In this document: one piece after another, positions 6,898-13,422 of the stretch
Layout of the letters: each line of letters begins with the position of its first letter
Position numbering within the stretch: the first letter of the stretch is position 1
From: Dehalococcoidia bacterium
GTDB taxonomy: Bacteria > Chloroflexota > Dehalococcoidia > GIF9 > AB-539-J10
Length of the DNA stretch: 37,127 bases
Assembly: GCA_030611085.1 (NCBI GenBank)
Contig: JAUWQI010000013.1
Coordinates: 1-37,127, forward strand
Direction: 5' to 3'
The notes under the pieces: generated by a model
The model's database searches: none
Told to the model about the DNA's origin: nothing
The model's input: only the letters and a program-made list of their open reading frames with translations
Program-made: the position numbers and the translations under genes

Positions 6898-7902
6898 ATG
6901 CAGTCCCTGTGCACTATAACTTCTAATGTGGAAATCTCGCCTGGCGTGCGGCTTATGTGGGTTGAAGCGCCAGATATAGCTGTTGCAGCTCAGCCAGGGC
7001 AATTCATTACGGTGCGCTGTGAGGATTTTATGTTACGCCGTCCCCTCAGCATACACCAGGTCTCACCCCTGTCCTCCCCCTCGACGGGAGGTGAGGCTAG
7101 TCCTGAGCGTAGCGAAGGAACTGGGGAGGGTGAGATTGCCATACTATTCCAGGTAGTAGGCAAAGGCACTCTTTGGCTGTCACAGCGGCAAATAGGGGAT
7201 AAAATAGATGTTCTGGGTTCTTTGGGAAAGGGATTTAGCATCCCCTCTGGCATTGCGAGGCGCAAAGTGCCGAGGCAATCTAAAAACTTGCTACTTGTGG
7301 CTGGGGGTATTGGCATTGCACCGCTCATCTTCCTGGCTCAGTTTGCTTCATCCCAGCATTCGATAACTCTAATTCACGGAGCGCGCACAGCTGCCCAGAT
7401 TTACCCCCTTTTGCCATTGCGAGCCCTTCGTTCCCCCTGTCATTCTGAGCCCTTCACTGTCATTGCGAGCGAAGCGAAGCAATCTCATCTCGCTCAGGAT
7501 AAACTCCGCGAAGAATCTCACCCCTCCGAACAGGCTCCGCGAAGCAATCTCTCTCCTTTGCCGCAGGAAATTCGATTCATCCCCATCACTGAAGATGGTA
7601 GTACGGGCAGAAAGGGCATGGTTACTGATATTCTGCCTGATTTCTTGGATTGGGCTGATCAGATATATGCTTGTGGGCCTGTAGATATGTATAAGGCAAT
7701 GTTGGAATTAACTTGTCATTCTGAGCGAAGCGAAGAATCTAAGCTAAAGAAATGTCAGGTTTCCCTTGAAGTGAGGCTAGGATGTGGCATCGGAGCTTGC
7801 TATGGCTGCACCATAAATACCAAAGGGGGATTAAAGAAAGTGTGCCAAGATGGCCCAGTATTTGAATTAGATGATATTCTATGGGAGGAAGTGAGAGTGT
7901 AA
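6898..7902 (+). CDS. pyrK: Dihydroorotate dehydrogenase electron transfer subunit (FAD / 2Fe-2S), carrying several repeat-derived insertions
   Basis: RRPLSIHQV, LLLVAGGIGIAPL, YACGPVDMYKAM, CGIGACYGCTINTKGGLKKVCQDGPVF. At 334 aa it is longer than a typical PyrK because of low-complexity repeat peptides. Confidence 0.92.
   Translation: MQSLCTITSNVEISPGVRLMWVEAPDIAVAAQPGQFITVRCEDFMLRRPLSIHQVSPLSSPSTGGEASPERSEGTGEGEIAILFQVVGKGTLWLSQRQIGDKIDVLGSLGKGFSIPSGIARRKVPRQSKNLLLVAGGIGIAPLIFLAQFASSQHSITLIHGARTAAQIYPLLPLRALRSPCHSEPFTVIASEAKQSHLAQDKLREESHPSEQAPRSNLSPLPQEIRFIPITEDGSTGRKGMVTDILPDFLDWADQIYACGPVDMYKAMLELTCHSERSEESKLKKCQVSLEVRLGCGIGACYGCTINTKGGLKKVCQDGPVFELDDILWEEVRV
7062..7134 (+). repeat. Third type of palindromic repeat (CTCACCCCTGTCCTCCCC...CTGGGGAGGGTGAG) in pyrK
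   Basis: Ends are near inverted complements; interior CCTGAGCGTAGCGAAGG. Encodes SPLSSPSTGGEASPERSEGTGEGE. Confidence 0.8.
7250..7281 (+). repeat. Short CAATCT-type repeat in pyrK
   Basis: GCATTGCGAGGCGCAAAGTGCCGAGGCAATCT, cf. GTCATTGCGAGCGAAGCGAAGCAATCT. Confidence 0.7.
7413..7550 (+). repeat. Compound GAAGAATCT/CAATCT repeat in pyrK
   Basis: GCCATTGCGAGCCCTTCG...TGTCATTCTGAGCCCTTCACTGTCATTGCGAGCGAAGCGAAGCAATCTCATCTCGCTCAGGATAAACTCCGCGAAGAATCTCACCCCTCCGAACAGGCTCCGCGAAGCAATCT. Confidence 0.92.
7714..7740 (+). repeat. Minimal 27-bp GAAGAATCT repeat in pyrK
   Basis: TGTCATTCTGAGCGAAGCGAAGAATCT encoding CHSERSEES. Confidence 0.92.
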
Positions 7903-7932
7903 CCAGTCACTCTATCATCACAAATTTTCCAT

Positions 7933-7997: not shown

Positions 7998-8417
7998 ATG
8001 ACCGTAGTTACAAAAGACATCACATTTCAAACAAAGGGGAATTGCGACATCATCGATATAACTCCTCCGGTGGCAAAGAGGGTAGAAGAATCGGGAGTAA
8101 GCGATGGGATAGTCACCGTATTCATATCTGGCTCAACAGCGGGAGTAACAACTATTGAGTATGAGCCAAATCTTCTTTCCGATTTTAAACAAATGTGGGA
8201 TAAGGTGATACCTCAAAATATCCCTTACGAGCACAACAAAACTTGGGGAGATGGGAACGGCCATTCCCATGTGCGTGCTTCTTTGCTCAGTGCTTCACTG
8301 GCCATACCTTTTGTAAATAGGAAATTAACTTTAGGCACCTGGCAGCAGATAGTTTTCGTCGATTTCGATAACCGCTCAAGGTCGCGGAAAATAGTGCTCC
8401 AAATCATGGGCGAGTGA
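7998..8417 (+). CDS. YjbQ/UPF0047 family protein (secondary thiamine-phosphate synthase-like)
   Basis: GIVTVFISGSTAGVTTIEYEP...GNGHSHVRASLLSASLAIPF...GTWQQIVFVDFDNRSRSRKIVLQIMGE is characteristic of YjbQ. Confidence 0.9.
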   Translation: MTVVTKDITFQTKGNCDIIDITPPVAKRVEESGVSDGIVTVFISGSTAGVTTIEYEPNLLSDFKQMWDKVIPQNIPYEHNKTWGDGNGHSHVRASLLSASLAIPFVNRKLTLGTWQQIVFVDFDNRSRSRKIVLQIMGE

Positions 8418-8514
8418 ACCAGCTTAACACTGCAATTTGGTGTAAAATAAACACTGGAGCAGTTGGGGATCGGGAGACGCAACAACAATTCATAGCTGAA
8501 AGGAGGTTTGTATT

Positions 8515-9000
8515 ATGGCAATGGGAAGATGGAGGCGAGAGCGTGAACTTATTCCCTGGAGACCTATCAGGGAAATAGACGAAATATTCGATGAGATGGA
8601 ACATCATTTTGAGGATGTTTTTGGTCGGCCTTTCTTCCCGGTAACATGGAAGCGAGCTCCTGCGGTGAGGGCATGGTCGCCGCCCCTGGAAGTGTTTGAA
8701 AGGGAAGATGAATACATCGTGAAAGCTGAACTTCCAGGGATGAAAAAGGAGGAGATTGACATCTCAGTCATAGGAGATACCTTGACTATCAAAGGTGAGC
8801 GAAAGACTGAGAAAGAAGCTAAAGAAGAGGATTACTATCTGTGTGAGCGTTGCTATGGCAGCTTCGAGAGGTCTCTTTCCTTGCCCACCGCTGTGGAAAC
8901 TGGAAAGGTAGAGGCTAAGTACGAGAATGGTGTTTTAGAGATAAAACTACCTAAAATTCCTGAAGCTAAGCCTAAACGAGTTGAGATTTCTGTTAAGTAG
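8515..9000 (+). CDS. Hsp20 / alpha-crystallin small heat-shock protein
   Basis: PPLEVFEREDEYIVKAELPGMKKEEIDISVIGDTLTIKGERK...GSFERSLSLPTAVETGKVEAKYENGVLEIKLPK. Confidence 0.95.
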   Translation: MAMGRWRRERELIPWRPIREIDEIFDEMEHHFEDVFGRPFFPVTWKRAPAVRAWSPPLEVFEREDEYIVKAELPGMKKEEIDISVIGDTLTIKGERKTEKEAKEEDYYLCERCYGSFERSLSLPTAVETGKVEAKYENGVLEIKLPKIPEAKPKRVEISVK

Positions 9001-9105: not shown

Positions 9106-9618
9106 GTGAATTTAAAAGCTCTACACAAACTGAGGTATGGTTTATATGTGGTAAGTTCTAGGAAGGACGATAGATTTAATGGATTGATTGCCAATGGGAT
9201 AACACAGGTCAGCGCTGTGCCAGCTAATTTTGTTGTTTCTATAAACAAGGAGAATCTTACCTATGAATTTATCAAAGCAAGCAAGGTGTTATCGATTGCG
9301 GTTCTTTCCAAAGAGGCTCCCTTGGAGTTCATCGGCCGCTTTGGCTTCAAATCAGGGAGGGAGATAGATAAATTTGAGGGCGTAGACTATAAGGTAGGCA
9401 AAACTGGAGCACCCATAGTTCTGGATAACACACTAGCTTATGTAGAAGCCAATGTTATCAATGAAGCAGATCTGGGAACTCACACTATATTCATAGCGCA
9501 AATGGTGGATACTGCAATCATCAAGGAAGGTGAGCCAATGACATACGACTACTATACTGATGTTTTACGGGGACCCACATCTAAGAGAGCACCACTTTAC
9601 TTTGAACAGATGTGGTAA
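9106..9618 (+). CDS. Flavin reductase-like (FMN-binding) protein
   Basis: LHKLRYGLYVVSSRKDDRFNGLIANGITQVSAVPANFVVSINKENLTYEFI: N-terminal domain of Hrb-type proteins. GTG start. Confidence 0.88.
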   Translation: MNLKALHKLRYGLYVVSSRKDDRFNGLIANGITQVSAVPANFVVSINKENLTYEFIKASKVLSIAVLSKEAPLEFIGRFGFKSGREIDKFEGVDYKVGKTGAPIVLDNTLAYVEANVINEADLGTHTIFIAQMVDTAIIKEGEPMTYDYYTDVLRGPTSKRAPLYFEQMW

Positions 9619-9700: not shown

Positions 9701-10387
9701 ATGGATACTAAAGCATTGCACCAGATAAGTTATGGTTTATATCTAATAAGCTCGCGCAAAGGAGGTAAACTTAATGGGCAAATTGCCAACACCCTGTTTC
9801 AAGTTACCTCCGAACCACCCACTATTGCAGTGTGCATCAACAAACAGAACTTCACTCACAGTTTTATTCATGACAGCCGTGTTTTCACAGCCTCGATTTT
9901 ATCCCAAGATACACCTCTACGTTTTATAGGGGACTTTGGTTTCAAATCAGGAAGGGATGTCAACAAACTTGCCCAAGTGAATTACAAGATAGGAAAAACT
10001 GGAGCTCCCATAGTTCTGGAGCATGCCTTGGCCTATGTGGAGGCAGAGGTTATCAATGAAATGGATGCTGGAACCCATACCATTTTTCTAGGGAGATTGT
10101 TGGAGGCGGAAACTCTAAAGAGTGGTGAGCCCATGACTTATGCCTACTACCATGAAGTGAAACGTGGCTCCACACCTAAGACAGCCCCCACATTCATAAA
10201 AGAAGAGAAAAAGGTTAAGAAATTGGCTAGATACAGATGTACTGTTTGCGGCTATATATATGACCCTGAAGAAGGTGACCCCGATGGCGGAATAGCCCCC
10301 GGAACTTCCTTTGGACAGATACCAGATGACTGGGTCTGTCCCGTGTGCGGTGCAAGAAAAGACCAGTTTGAAAAAATGGAGGAATAA
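9701..10387 (+). CDS. Flavin reductase-rubredoxin fusion (high-molecular-weight rubredoxin, Hrb-like)
   Basis: N-terminal flavin reductase domain paralogous to the previous ORF; C-terminal [47 protein letters not shown] rubredoxin. Confidence 0.93.
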
Positions 10388-10389
10388 AA

Positions 10390-11274
10390 ATGGAACTTAA
10401 GGGAAGCAAGACTGCCGAGGCCTTACAAAGAGCTTTTGTTTCAGAAACGCAGGCGCATAATAGATATACATATTTTGCCGTTGCCGCCAAGAAAGCTGGT
10501 CTTGAACAAGTAGCTGACATATTTTCGGAGGTAGCTTTAAATGAAGCAGAACATGCCGAGCATGAGTTCAATTTCCTCGGTGGTATTGCAGATGCCGAGG
10601 AAAACTTGAAAGCAGCGGCCAGACGTGAGCACTATGAATGGACTGAGATGTATCCCGAATTGGGAAACATAGCGTGGGAAGAGGGCTTTACCGAAATTGC
10701 TGACTTTTTTCAGAGGATGAGCAAAGTTGAGAAAAAACATGAGAAATTATTTCTCCAACTGCTAGAAAACTTGGAAAGGGGTCAAGACCTGGAAGGGAGG
10801 ACAGTAGGACATTCTGCCGTTGAAATGGCTCAGCTCATGTTGCCCCATCAGGCTAACCCCGCGGGATATGTGCACGGTGGGGAATTAATGAAGATGATGG
10901 ATAATGCTGCTGGCGTTGTAGCCTGCCGCCATGCTCGTACTAACGTTGTGACTGCTAATGTAGAGGAAATAAATTTTCACCACCCTGTGCGTGTTGGAGG
11001 CCTGGTTCTAATACACGCGCAGCTCACTTTTGTCAGCCGGTCATCTATGGAAGTTCGCATAGAGCTTGAAACAGAAGATCTTGTCACAGGATTCAGATTG
11101 CAAGCCCTGACCGCCTACTATAACATGGTAGCCCTGGATACTGAGGGGAGACCTATGCGCGTACCATCTCTAATAATAAGCACCGAAGAGAAAGAGAAGC
11201 TCTTCAAGGAAGGACTGGCAAGATACAGAAATAGAAAGAAGAGGAAAGCGCGGATTGAAAAAGTAGAGGAGTGA
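10390..11274 (+). CDS. Rubrerythrin-type ferritin-like domain fused to an acyl-CoA thioesterase (hotdog) domain
   Basis: N-term: KTAEALQRAFVSETQAHNRYTYFAVAAKKAGLEQVADIFSEVALNEAEHAEHE. C-term: LMLPHQANPAGYVHGGELMKMMDNAAGVVACRHARTNVVTANVEEINFHHPVRVGGLVLIHAQLTFVSRSSMEV. One uninterrupted ORF. Confidence 0.9.
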   Translation: MELKGSKTAEALQRAFVSETQAHNRYTYFAVAAKKAGLEQVADIFSEVALNEAEHAEHEFNFLGGIADAEENLKAAARREHYEWTEMYPELGNIAWEEGFTEIADFFQRMSKVEKKHEKLFLQLLENLERGQDLEGRTVGHSAVEMAQLMLPHQANPAGYVHGGELMKMMDNAAGVVACRHARTNVVTANVEEINFHHPVRVGGLVLIHAQLTFVSRSSMEVRIELETEDLVTGFRLQALTAYYNMVALDTEGRPMRVPSLIISTEEKEKLFKEGLARYRNRKKRKARIEKVEE

Positions 11275-11278
11275 TGAC

Positions 11279-11674
11279 ATGACAATGATAGAAAACCTGA
11301 GCAAAGAACAATTAGAAGGGATATTAGAAGCAATACCGGTAGAAATTTCTTTCGTTGATGAAAATGGTTTAGTTAAATTTTGGAATAAACACGAAACGAG
11401 GATTTTTAAACGGCCGGTTTCTGTAATTGGGAAATCAGTTCAAAATTGCCACCCAAAGCAGAGCGTGGATAAAGTAAACCAAATATTGTCTGATTTTAAG
11501 GGTGGCAAAAGAAATTCAGCGGAATTTTGGATAAATCTTGGGGAGAGGAAGGTATATATTAGATATTTTGCTGTGCGGGATAAAGCAGGAAGGTATCTAG
11601 GCACACTGGAAGCCACTCAGGATATCACGAAGATAAAAGAGATTGAAGGAGAAAGAAGACTTTTAGAATATTGA
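11279..11674 (+). CDS. Stand-alone PAS-domain protein (similar to the PAS module of DUF438 proteins)
   Basis: LEGILEAIPVEISFVDENGLVKFWNKHETRIFKRPVSVIGKSVQNCHPKQSVDKVNQIL...YFAVRDKAGRYLGTLEATQDITKIKEIEGERRLL. Confidence 0.85.
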   Translation: MTMIENLSKEQLEGILEAIPVEISFVDENGLVKFWNKHETRIFKRPVSVIGKSVQNCHPKQSVDKVNQILSDFKGGKRNSAEFWINLGERKVYIRYFAVRDKAGRYLGTLEATQDITKIKEIEGERRLLEY

Positions 11675-11944: not shown

Positions 11945-12442
11945 ATGGGTAACAAAGGAAAAGAAATCGTCAAGATGAACGTCGATGAGTTAATCGATAA
12001 ACTTAACAGGGCTTTTGCGGATGAGTGGCTGGCATACTACCAGTACTGGGTAGGCTCGAAAGTAGTTAGAGGACCGATGAAGGAAGCGGTTATTGCTGAA
12101 CTCACAGAACATGCTGGTGATGAGCTTCGGCATGCTGAGATGCTCACAGGGAGGATAATACAACTTGGTGGCACACCCATTCTAAAACCAGAAGACTGGT
12201 ATAAGATGACGAATTGCGGATACGATGCTCCAGAAGACCCTTCTGTAAGAGTTATATTGGAACAGAATATAAAGGGCGAGCGGTGTGCAATTGATGGGTA
12301 TAATCGGCTGCTTGAAACCACCAGAGATAAAGACCCAGTTACCTACAACATTGCGCTCCAGATTCTCCAAGATGAAATAGAGCATGAAGAAGACCTTCAA
12401 GCCCTCTTGGAGGATATAGATAAAACGACGAAAGGGAGGTAA
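11945..12442 (+). CDS. Ferritin-like / Dps-like (bacterioferritin-type) diiron protein
   Basis: MNVDELIDKLNRAFADEWLAYYQYWVGSKVVRGP...EHAGDELRHAEMLTGRIIQLGG...ILQDEIEHEEDLQALLEDI. Confidence 0.88.
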   Translation: MGNKGKEIVKMNVDELIDKLNRAFADEWLAYYQYWVGSKVVRGPMKEAVIAELTEHAGDELRHAEMLTGRIIQLGGTPILKPEDWYKMTNCGYDAPEDPSVRVILEQNIKGERCAIDGYNRLLETTRDKDPVTYNIALQILQDEIEHEEDLQALLEDIDKTTKGR

Positions 12443-12446
12443 GGAA

Positions 12447-12794
12447 ATGAAATTTGGAGACATTCTAAAAAACAAAGAGGCTGAGGGGAAGGAGAAACAT
12501 GTCCCTGTTATCGAGGTTGGCAAGGGAAAGGGTGAGAAGGGCGCAGACATTGTACATGTTGTAGTGGGGAAGGAAACTCCTCATCCCAATACCGTAGAAC
12601 ATCATATTGTTTGGATAGAGCTGTATGGAGTGAAGAAAGACGGGCAGGTAGTAGACCTGGGCCGTTCCGCCTTTGCGCCTTCCTATACCAACCCCAATGT
12701 GAGGTTTCAGGTGCCAGTGGGAGAATTCAGGTCCTTCTGTGCTCTTTCCTACTGCAATATACACGGTTTATGGGAAAACTGCATAGAAGTTTGA
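12447..12794 (+). CDS. Superoxide reductase (neelaredoxin/desulfoferrodoxin C-terminal type)
   Basis: EKHVPVIEV, HPNTVEHHIVWIELYG, FCALSYCNIHGLWEN metal-site motifs. Confidence 0.93.
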   Translation: MKFGDILKNKEAEGKEKHVPVIEVGKGKGEKGADIVHVVVGKETPHPNTVEHHIVWIELYGVKKDGQVVDLGRSAFAPSYTNPNVRFQVPVGEFRSFCALSYCNIHGLWENCIEV

Positions 12795-12834: not shown

Positions 12835-13422
12835 GTGATAGTAGTAGACAAACCAGCGCCAGATTTTGAGGGGACAGCATACTTCGAGGGAAAAGTGCAA
12901 CAGGTAAAATTATCTGATTACAGAGGCAAATGGGTTTTGGTTTGCTTTTACCCCGGTGATTTTACCTATGTGTGCGCTACAGAAGTTGCCGGGATAATAA
13001 GAAACTACGAAAGTTTAAGGCAGTTTGGAGGGCAGGGTATTGCTATAAGTGCGGATTCTGTTCATTCCCACAAGGTTTGGGCAGAAACTAGCCCAGCGAT
13101 AACCGCTGCTCTGAAGGAAACAGGGAGGAAGCTTCCGCCAATGCCCATGGTGGCTGACCCAACTTTTGAGATAGGTAGAAAATATGGAGTTGTTGACGAG
13201 GATGCGGGCGTTGAAACTAGGGGCAGATTCATTGTAGACCCTGATGGCATAGTAAGAGGTTATGAGGTGTTGAATGCCACCGTTGGCAGAAATCTGGAAG
13301 AGACATTCAGGCAATTACAAGCTTTCAAATTTGTCAGGGATACGGGCAAAGTTACGCCCGCGGGATGGAAACCAGGCGAAGAGGGGATAGAACCGACAAT
13401 AGAAAACGCCGGCAAGATTTAG
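12835..13422 (+). CDS. Peroxiredoxin (AhpC/TSA family)
   Basis: DYRGKWVLVCFYPGDFTYVCATEVAGIIRNYESLRQFGGQGIAISADSVHSHKVW...GRFIVDPDGIVRGYEVLNATVGRNLEET. GTG start. Confidence 0.93.
   Translation: MIVVDKPAPDFEGTAYFEGKVQQVKLSDYRGKWVLVCFYPGDFTYVCATEVAGIIRNYESLRQFGGQGIAISADSVHSHKVWAETSPAITAALKETGRKLPPMPMVADPTFEIGRKYGVVDEDAGVETRGRFIVDPDGIVRGYEVLNATVGRNLEETFRQLQAFKFVRDTGKVTPAGWKPGEEGIEPTIENAGKI

Follow-up and report, generated by a model that had tools for sequence, protein, structure and literature searches.

The window analyzed here, a stretch of 37,127 nucleotides from a Dehalococcoidia bacterium (contig JAUWQI010000013.1), contains a gene that seems to join a rubrerythrin to an acyl-CoA thioesterase. 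This raises the question whether such a protein is genuine and, if so, what the two domains would do together. The gene and the regions of its product are as follows.

10390-11274, forward strand: fusion gene, one unbroken ORF with an ATG start, 294 codons and no internal stop
10390..10785, forward strand: rubrerythrin (ferritin-like diiron) domain, residues 1-132, delimited by Pfam, ligand alignment and model helices
10786..10803, forward strand: short linker, residues 133-138 (QDLEGR), domain limits from Pfam and PDB search
10804..11274, forward strand: ACOT7-type hotdog acyl-CoA thioesterase domain plus C-terminal helix, residues 139-294

Pfam identified a Rubrerythrin domain (PF02915) at residues 10-124 (E 5.5e-21, 75.8 bits; cut-off 22.8) and a 4HBT domain (PF03061) at residues 159-232 (E 6.4e-18, 65.3 bits; cut-off 20.6), and no Pfam match to a rubredoxin or RUBY_RBDX domain was obtained within the fusion protein. 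In a PDB sequence search the first half of the protein matched rubrerythrins and the second half mouse ACOT7 (6vfy, E 1.4e-53), with the ACOT7-type hotdog domain proper spanning residues ~139-285. Similarity to NCBIfam models was partial: the rubrerythrin equivalog (NF045767) scored 129 bits versus a cut-off of 200 bits, and the YciA-type thioesterase 54 bits versus a cut-off of 162. Because both scores are below the cut-off, the whole protein is covered by no curated NCBIfam family. AlphaFold2 modelling of the monomer, built with 21 fusion sequences, yielded a best model with a mean pLDDT of 91.9 and a pTM of 0.78 (the remaining four models were weaker, 66.7-73.8). In this model four long helices are followed by the hotdog and then by a C-terminal helix, and the linker region (residues 121-150) has a pLDDT of 88-93. 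The top Foldseek match was the C-terminal domain of human ACOT7 (target-normalised TM 0.96, rmsd 1.2, 41% identity). The protein is a genuine combination of a rubrerythrin and an ACOT7-type thioesterase that has no rubredoxin domain. A preliminary description had claimed a single 294-aa ORF in which a rubrerythrin is followed by a hotdog instead of a rubredoxin domain. The uninterrupted frame and the search with the two Pfam families bear this out, and the structure prediction that it proposed as a check shows the ferritin-like helices and the hotdog together in a confident model (one of the five models being confident).

Faulty assembly, or read-through from one gene into the next, is rejected in view of 29 homologous fusion proteins in 28 genomes (two are clipped by contig ends) and of the selection acting on both halves, which also counters the concern, voiced in the preliminary description, of a missing stop or a frameshift. 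For the six pairs with unsaturated dS, dN/dS was 0.04-0.20 for the rubrerythrin half and 0.02-0.12 for the thioesterase half; both halves are under purifying selection. The fusion was detected in eight of the 294 genomes sampled from the window's class and in three of the 400 sampled from its phylum. It was also present in seven of 149 genomes of the class of a Deltaproteobacteria-labelled carrier (one clipped by a contig end) and in nine of 297 genomes of the phylum of that same carrier. A scan with one genome per species required near-exact peptide patterns and is therefore not exhaustive; among the best 80 of the 248 related loci, full-length fusions were present in MAGs labelled Dehalococcoidia, Deltaproteobacteria or Syntrophobacterales. 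The fusion is real, conserved and uncommon, and occurs in uncultured anaerobes of two phyla. Carriage by phages and by plasmids was considered and rejected: a viral scan returned just two relatives, both rubrerythrin-only, and no plasmid record covered 80% of the query.

All 28 fusions usable for the thioesterase tree fell on one side of a branch (90/86), where they adjoin stand-alone thioesterases that are mostly from the same class. The nearest kin in this tree are the stand-alone thioesterases L145-L154 and L219, which are 48-58% identical to the fused domain and are encoded in the window's class and, in one case, in the sample of the second phylum (G610). In the rubrerythrin tree the fusions lie outside the main body of 94 stand-alone rubrerythrins and form two weakly separated groups; this tree needs two changes, the split being weakly supported and several branches long. 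A recent swap inside the rubrerythrin clade of the class was unsupported, since the rubrerythrin tree sets the fusions apart and the thioesterase tree unites them. As judged from these trees, the simplest, though unproven, reading would be that the fusion arose once and later spread from one phylum to the other.

Alignment to Desulfovibrio vulgaris rubrerythrin (1b71) placed the diiron ligands of the window protein at E19, E52, H55, E80, E83, E114 and H117, which we take to be the counterparts of E20, E53, H56, E94, E97, E127 and H130 of the D. vulgaris protein. The full set of seven ligands was present in 25 of the 29 fusions. The four departures are L196 (Q83), L218 (D83), L117 (8952-9848, G034; A114 and Q117) and L119 (6599-7537, G029; K19, C55 and D83). 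Seven Deltaproteobacteria-type rows of the alignment have a one-residue gap between E80 and E83, indicating that the helix geometry may differ in these proteins. The thioesterase catalytic pair N156 and D171 and the HGG motif at 162-164 were invariant in all 29 fusions, L117 and L119 included. Catalysis by mouse ACOT7 involves Asn24, located in its first hotdog, and Asp213, located in its second (PMC2698920); according to the PDB-search alignment, the equivalents of both residues are located within the single hotdog of the window protein. Loss of catalytic residues in both domains, which had been named as an argument against the fusion, was not seen. The diiron sites of L117 and L119, both belonging to the window's own family, are clearly damaged. 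The combination of such sites with an intact thioesterase site shows that strict coupling between the two activities is not required.

The genes surrounding the fusion in the window, which are all read in the same direction, were assigned as follows; Hrb, the high-molecular-weight rubredoxin of Moorella thermoacetica, consists of a flavin reductase and a rubredoxin.

9106..9618, forward strand: flavin reductase domain protein, GTG start, 54% identical to the Hrb flavin domain
9701..10387, forward strand: Hrb-type flavin reductase-rubredoxin protein (Pfam Flavin_Reduct and Rubredoxin)
11279..11674, forward strand: PAS-domain protein (Pfam PAS_10), starting 4 bp past the fusion stop
11945..12442, forward strand: ferritin-like protein (Pfam)
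12447..12794, forward strand: superoxide reductase (SOR) with a desulfoferrodoxin domain (Pfam)
12835..13422, forward strand: peroxiredoxin (AhpC/TSA, 1-cysPrx_C; Pfam)

Only 2 bp separate the end of the Hrb gene from the ATG of the fusion. Homologues of the PAS-domain protein, a possible redox or O2 sensor, are also present at L111-L114, L116, L117 and L119. All neighbors that the preliminary description had listed (a rubredoxin-fusion protein, SOR, ferritin and peroxiredoxin) were recognized by Pfam. Further upstream in the window, at 6898-7902, an ORF of 334 aa resembles by sequence a dihydroorotate dehydrogenase electron-transfer protein. A repeat of ~28 nt (like GTCATTCTGAGCGAAGCGAAGAATCT) is found inside this ORF at 7095, 7457 and 7713 and once more after the gene at 7932; it is a small repeat element within a coding gene.

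Within the stretches fetched around the 13 Chloroflexota loci, Hrb or rubredoxin was encoded near the fusion at 11, a flavodiiron protein likewise at 11 and SOR at seven, and IscS/IscU, SufB/C, a TrxR-like gene and DUF438-hemerythrin-PAS genes were recurrent. Together with the window cluster, this supports the peroxide-defence setting that had been proposed. In relatives of the class that are devoid of the fusion, the nearest stand-alone rubrerythrin was situated among the same cluster genes at all eight loci examined, which indicates that the fusion holds the place of a classical rubrerythrin there; the single one of these loci that was scanned with Pfam, L155, has the C-terminal rubredoxin domain. 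Two further arrangements were observed. At L116, the immediate neighbor of the fusion is another rubrerythrin (8367-8870, G047), which has a rubredoxin domain. At L156 (8764-10158, G195) seven separate rubredoxin-domain matches are arranged in a row beside an Hrb flavin domain, which suggests either several rubredoxin genes in an array or one protein with multiple rubredoxin domains.

The 16 Deltaproteobacteria-type loci had no Hrb, flavodiiron protein or SOR homologues near the fusion; hence, the redox link in cis holds for Chloroflexota only. The neighbors at these loci include two-component systems, a Sir2 gene, a histone-deacetylase-like gene and a CoA-transferase. An acyl-CoA dehydrogenase gene precedes the fusion on the same strand in G708 (70 bp upstream) and in G687 (about 250 bp upstream); these two are close orthologues and the adjacency therefore counts once.

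These observations bear on two alternative explanations of the fusion. According to the first, the thioesterase would be the working enzyme and the rubrerythrin domain mainly a sensor or dimerization module that switches or scaffolds the thioesterase upon oxidation of the diiron site. Such a division of labor would agree with the invariant thioesterase site next to the damaged ligands of L117 and L119, with the lack of redox neighbors for fusions outside Chloroflexota, and with the better conservation of the thioesterase half, whose identity to the window protein exceeded that of the rubrerythrin half in nearly all pairs (e.g. 64% versus 48%). We nevertheless regard it as unlikely, because the seven diiron ligands are kept in most fusions, the rubrerythrin half is under strong purifying selection, and the same cluster holds a stand-alone rubrerythrin in relatives. 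According to the second, the fusion would only secure co-expression of two stress activities, with neither substrate nor regulatory coupling between them. The co-directional and tightly packed genes of the cluster, and the two members that tolerate a damaged diiron site, could be explained in this way, but persistence of the fusion over two phyla as one group in the thioesterase tree (90/86) seemingly goes beyond the needs of co-expression, which makes this explanation quite improbable.

The genome that contains the window (1.16 Mb, 83% complete) encodes no PF02915 match other than the fusion, one further 4HBT match, a single, weak flavodiiron-type match above the cut-off, and nine acyl-CoA dehydrogenase matches. 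At least one acyl-CoA dehydrogenase was encoded in every carrier genome examined; since most non-carriers encode them as well, their presence in carriers is background and not proof. When carriers and non-carriers were compared for the number of acyl-CoA dehydrogenases, phylogeny being ignored, p was 0.009 for raw counts and 0.057 per Mb. The count was dropped as a marker of carriers, as the effect per Mb is weak and kinship is ignored.

Altogether, we lean, with reserve, towards a bifunctional oxygen-stress enzyme, an H2O2 reductase served by rubredoxin in trans and an acyl-CoA thioesterase, which would jointly ease a stalled oxidation of acyl-CoA. From what is known of the two families, the N-terminal domain would reduce H2O2 to water at its diiron site and the C-terminal ACOT7-type hotdog would hydrolyze acyl-CoA to the free acid and CoASH through its Asn/Asp site. 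A separate rubredoxin would act in trans in place of the missing domain; in the window, the Hrb-type protein is its most likely source. Oxygen may stall or autoxidize the acyl-CoA dehydrogenase/ETF machinery, and the likely benefit would be that one protein removes peroxide and also relieves the build-up of acyl-CoA by freeing CoA. That peroxide defence and acyl-CoA turnover are linked, as had been suggested from the domain combination, is plausible in view of the conserved fusion, its two intact active sites, the acyl-CoA dehydrogenases of the examined carriers and the adjacency in one lineage. Thus, of the original suggestion the architecture and the setting stand and the link itself is plausible; L117 and L119 show that it need not be a strict one.

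Two more specific forms of such a link can be considered. In a peroxide-gated acyl-CoA hydrolase, the diiron site oxidized by H2O2 would allosterically open or close the thioesterase. We consider this decidedly unlikely; if true, a single protein would contain a switch through which its redox state directly controls acyl-CoA flux, and anaerobic fatty-acid oxidizers would thereby shed acyl-CoA and regain CoA when oxygen appears. Alternatively, as the preliminary description had proposed for oxidized acyl groups, both domains might share a substrate: the diiron site would reduce hydroperoxy-acyl-CoA or otherwise attack the chain, and the hotdog would then release the acid, in a clean-up of oxidized lipids. 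A domain of a peroxide-reducing type is indeed physically joined to one of an acyl-CoA-hydrolyzing type, and acyl chains are the substrates of some other ferritin-like diiron enzymes. However, the ligand set is that of an ordinary H2O2-reducing rubrerythrin, there is no evidence for a fatty chain fitting into the diiron pocket, and nothing found here indicates oxidized lipids as the target; to this possibility we assign the lowest probability of all. For the bifunctional oxygen-stress enzyme that we favor, recurrence of the fusion in two phyla of anaerobes bearing acyl-CoA dehydrogenases leads to a testable claim, namely that anaerobic fatty-acid degraders exposed to oxygen combine the removal of peroxide with the release of acyl-CoA. 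The fusion is also a concrete candidate partner for Hrb in these uncultured bacteria.

In the published rubrerythrin architectures consulted, the rubredoxin domain is either C-terminal, N-terminal or absent (PMC5114695, PMC7482061), which supports the initial impression that the present one is not standard. No description of a rubrerythrin-thioesterase (hotdog) fusion was found by text searches of a collection of open-access papers, and the titles and abstracts of open-access papers on rubrerythrin and acyl-CoA thioesterase or hydrolase concerned no such fusion. As far as we could find, a rubrerythrin with a metabolic hydrolase as partner domain is undescribed.

Compared with classical rubrerythrin (D. 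vulgaris Rbr, PDB 1b71/1lkm), the fusion has the same N-terminal ferritin-like domain and the same seven diiron ligands, but a hotdog thioesterase takes the position of the C-terminal rubredoxin domain. The absence of a rubredoxin domain from a diiron protein is shared with the rubredoxin-less rubrerythrins (sulerythrin, ferriperoxin and the aerobic-type rubrerythrins). These are one-domain proteins, the aerobic-type group forming a separate lineage (PMC5114695), whereas the fusion adds a second enzyme domain and, in Chloroflexota, has rubredoxin encoded nearby. With the ACOT7/BACH-type thioesterases (mouse ACOT7, 6vfy/2q2b; bacterial 1vpm and NmACH) it has in common the hotdog fold, the Asn/Asp pair, the HGG motif and the C-terminal helix. 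Enzymes of this type assemble as hexamers of hotdogs or trimers of double hotdogs. ACOT7, however, is a tandem double hotdog over which the catalytic pair is split, and the fusion has both residues in a single hotdog joined to a diiron domain. Finally, the gene upstream of the fusion encodes the same pair of domains as M. thermoacetica Hrb. Hrb, for which the original reference is cited in PMC7482061 and PMC9364112, is known to work with a flavodiiron protein that has NO reductase activity; its pairing with a rubrerythrin-thioesterase is only proposed here.
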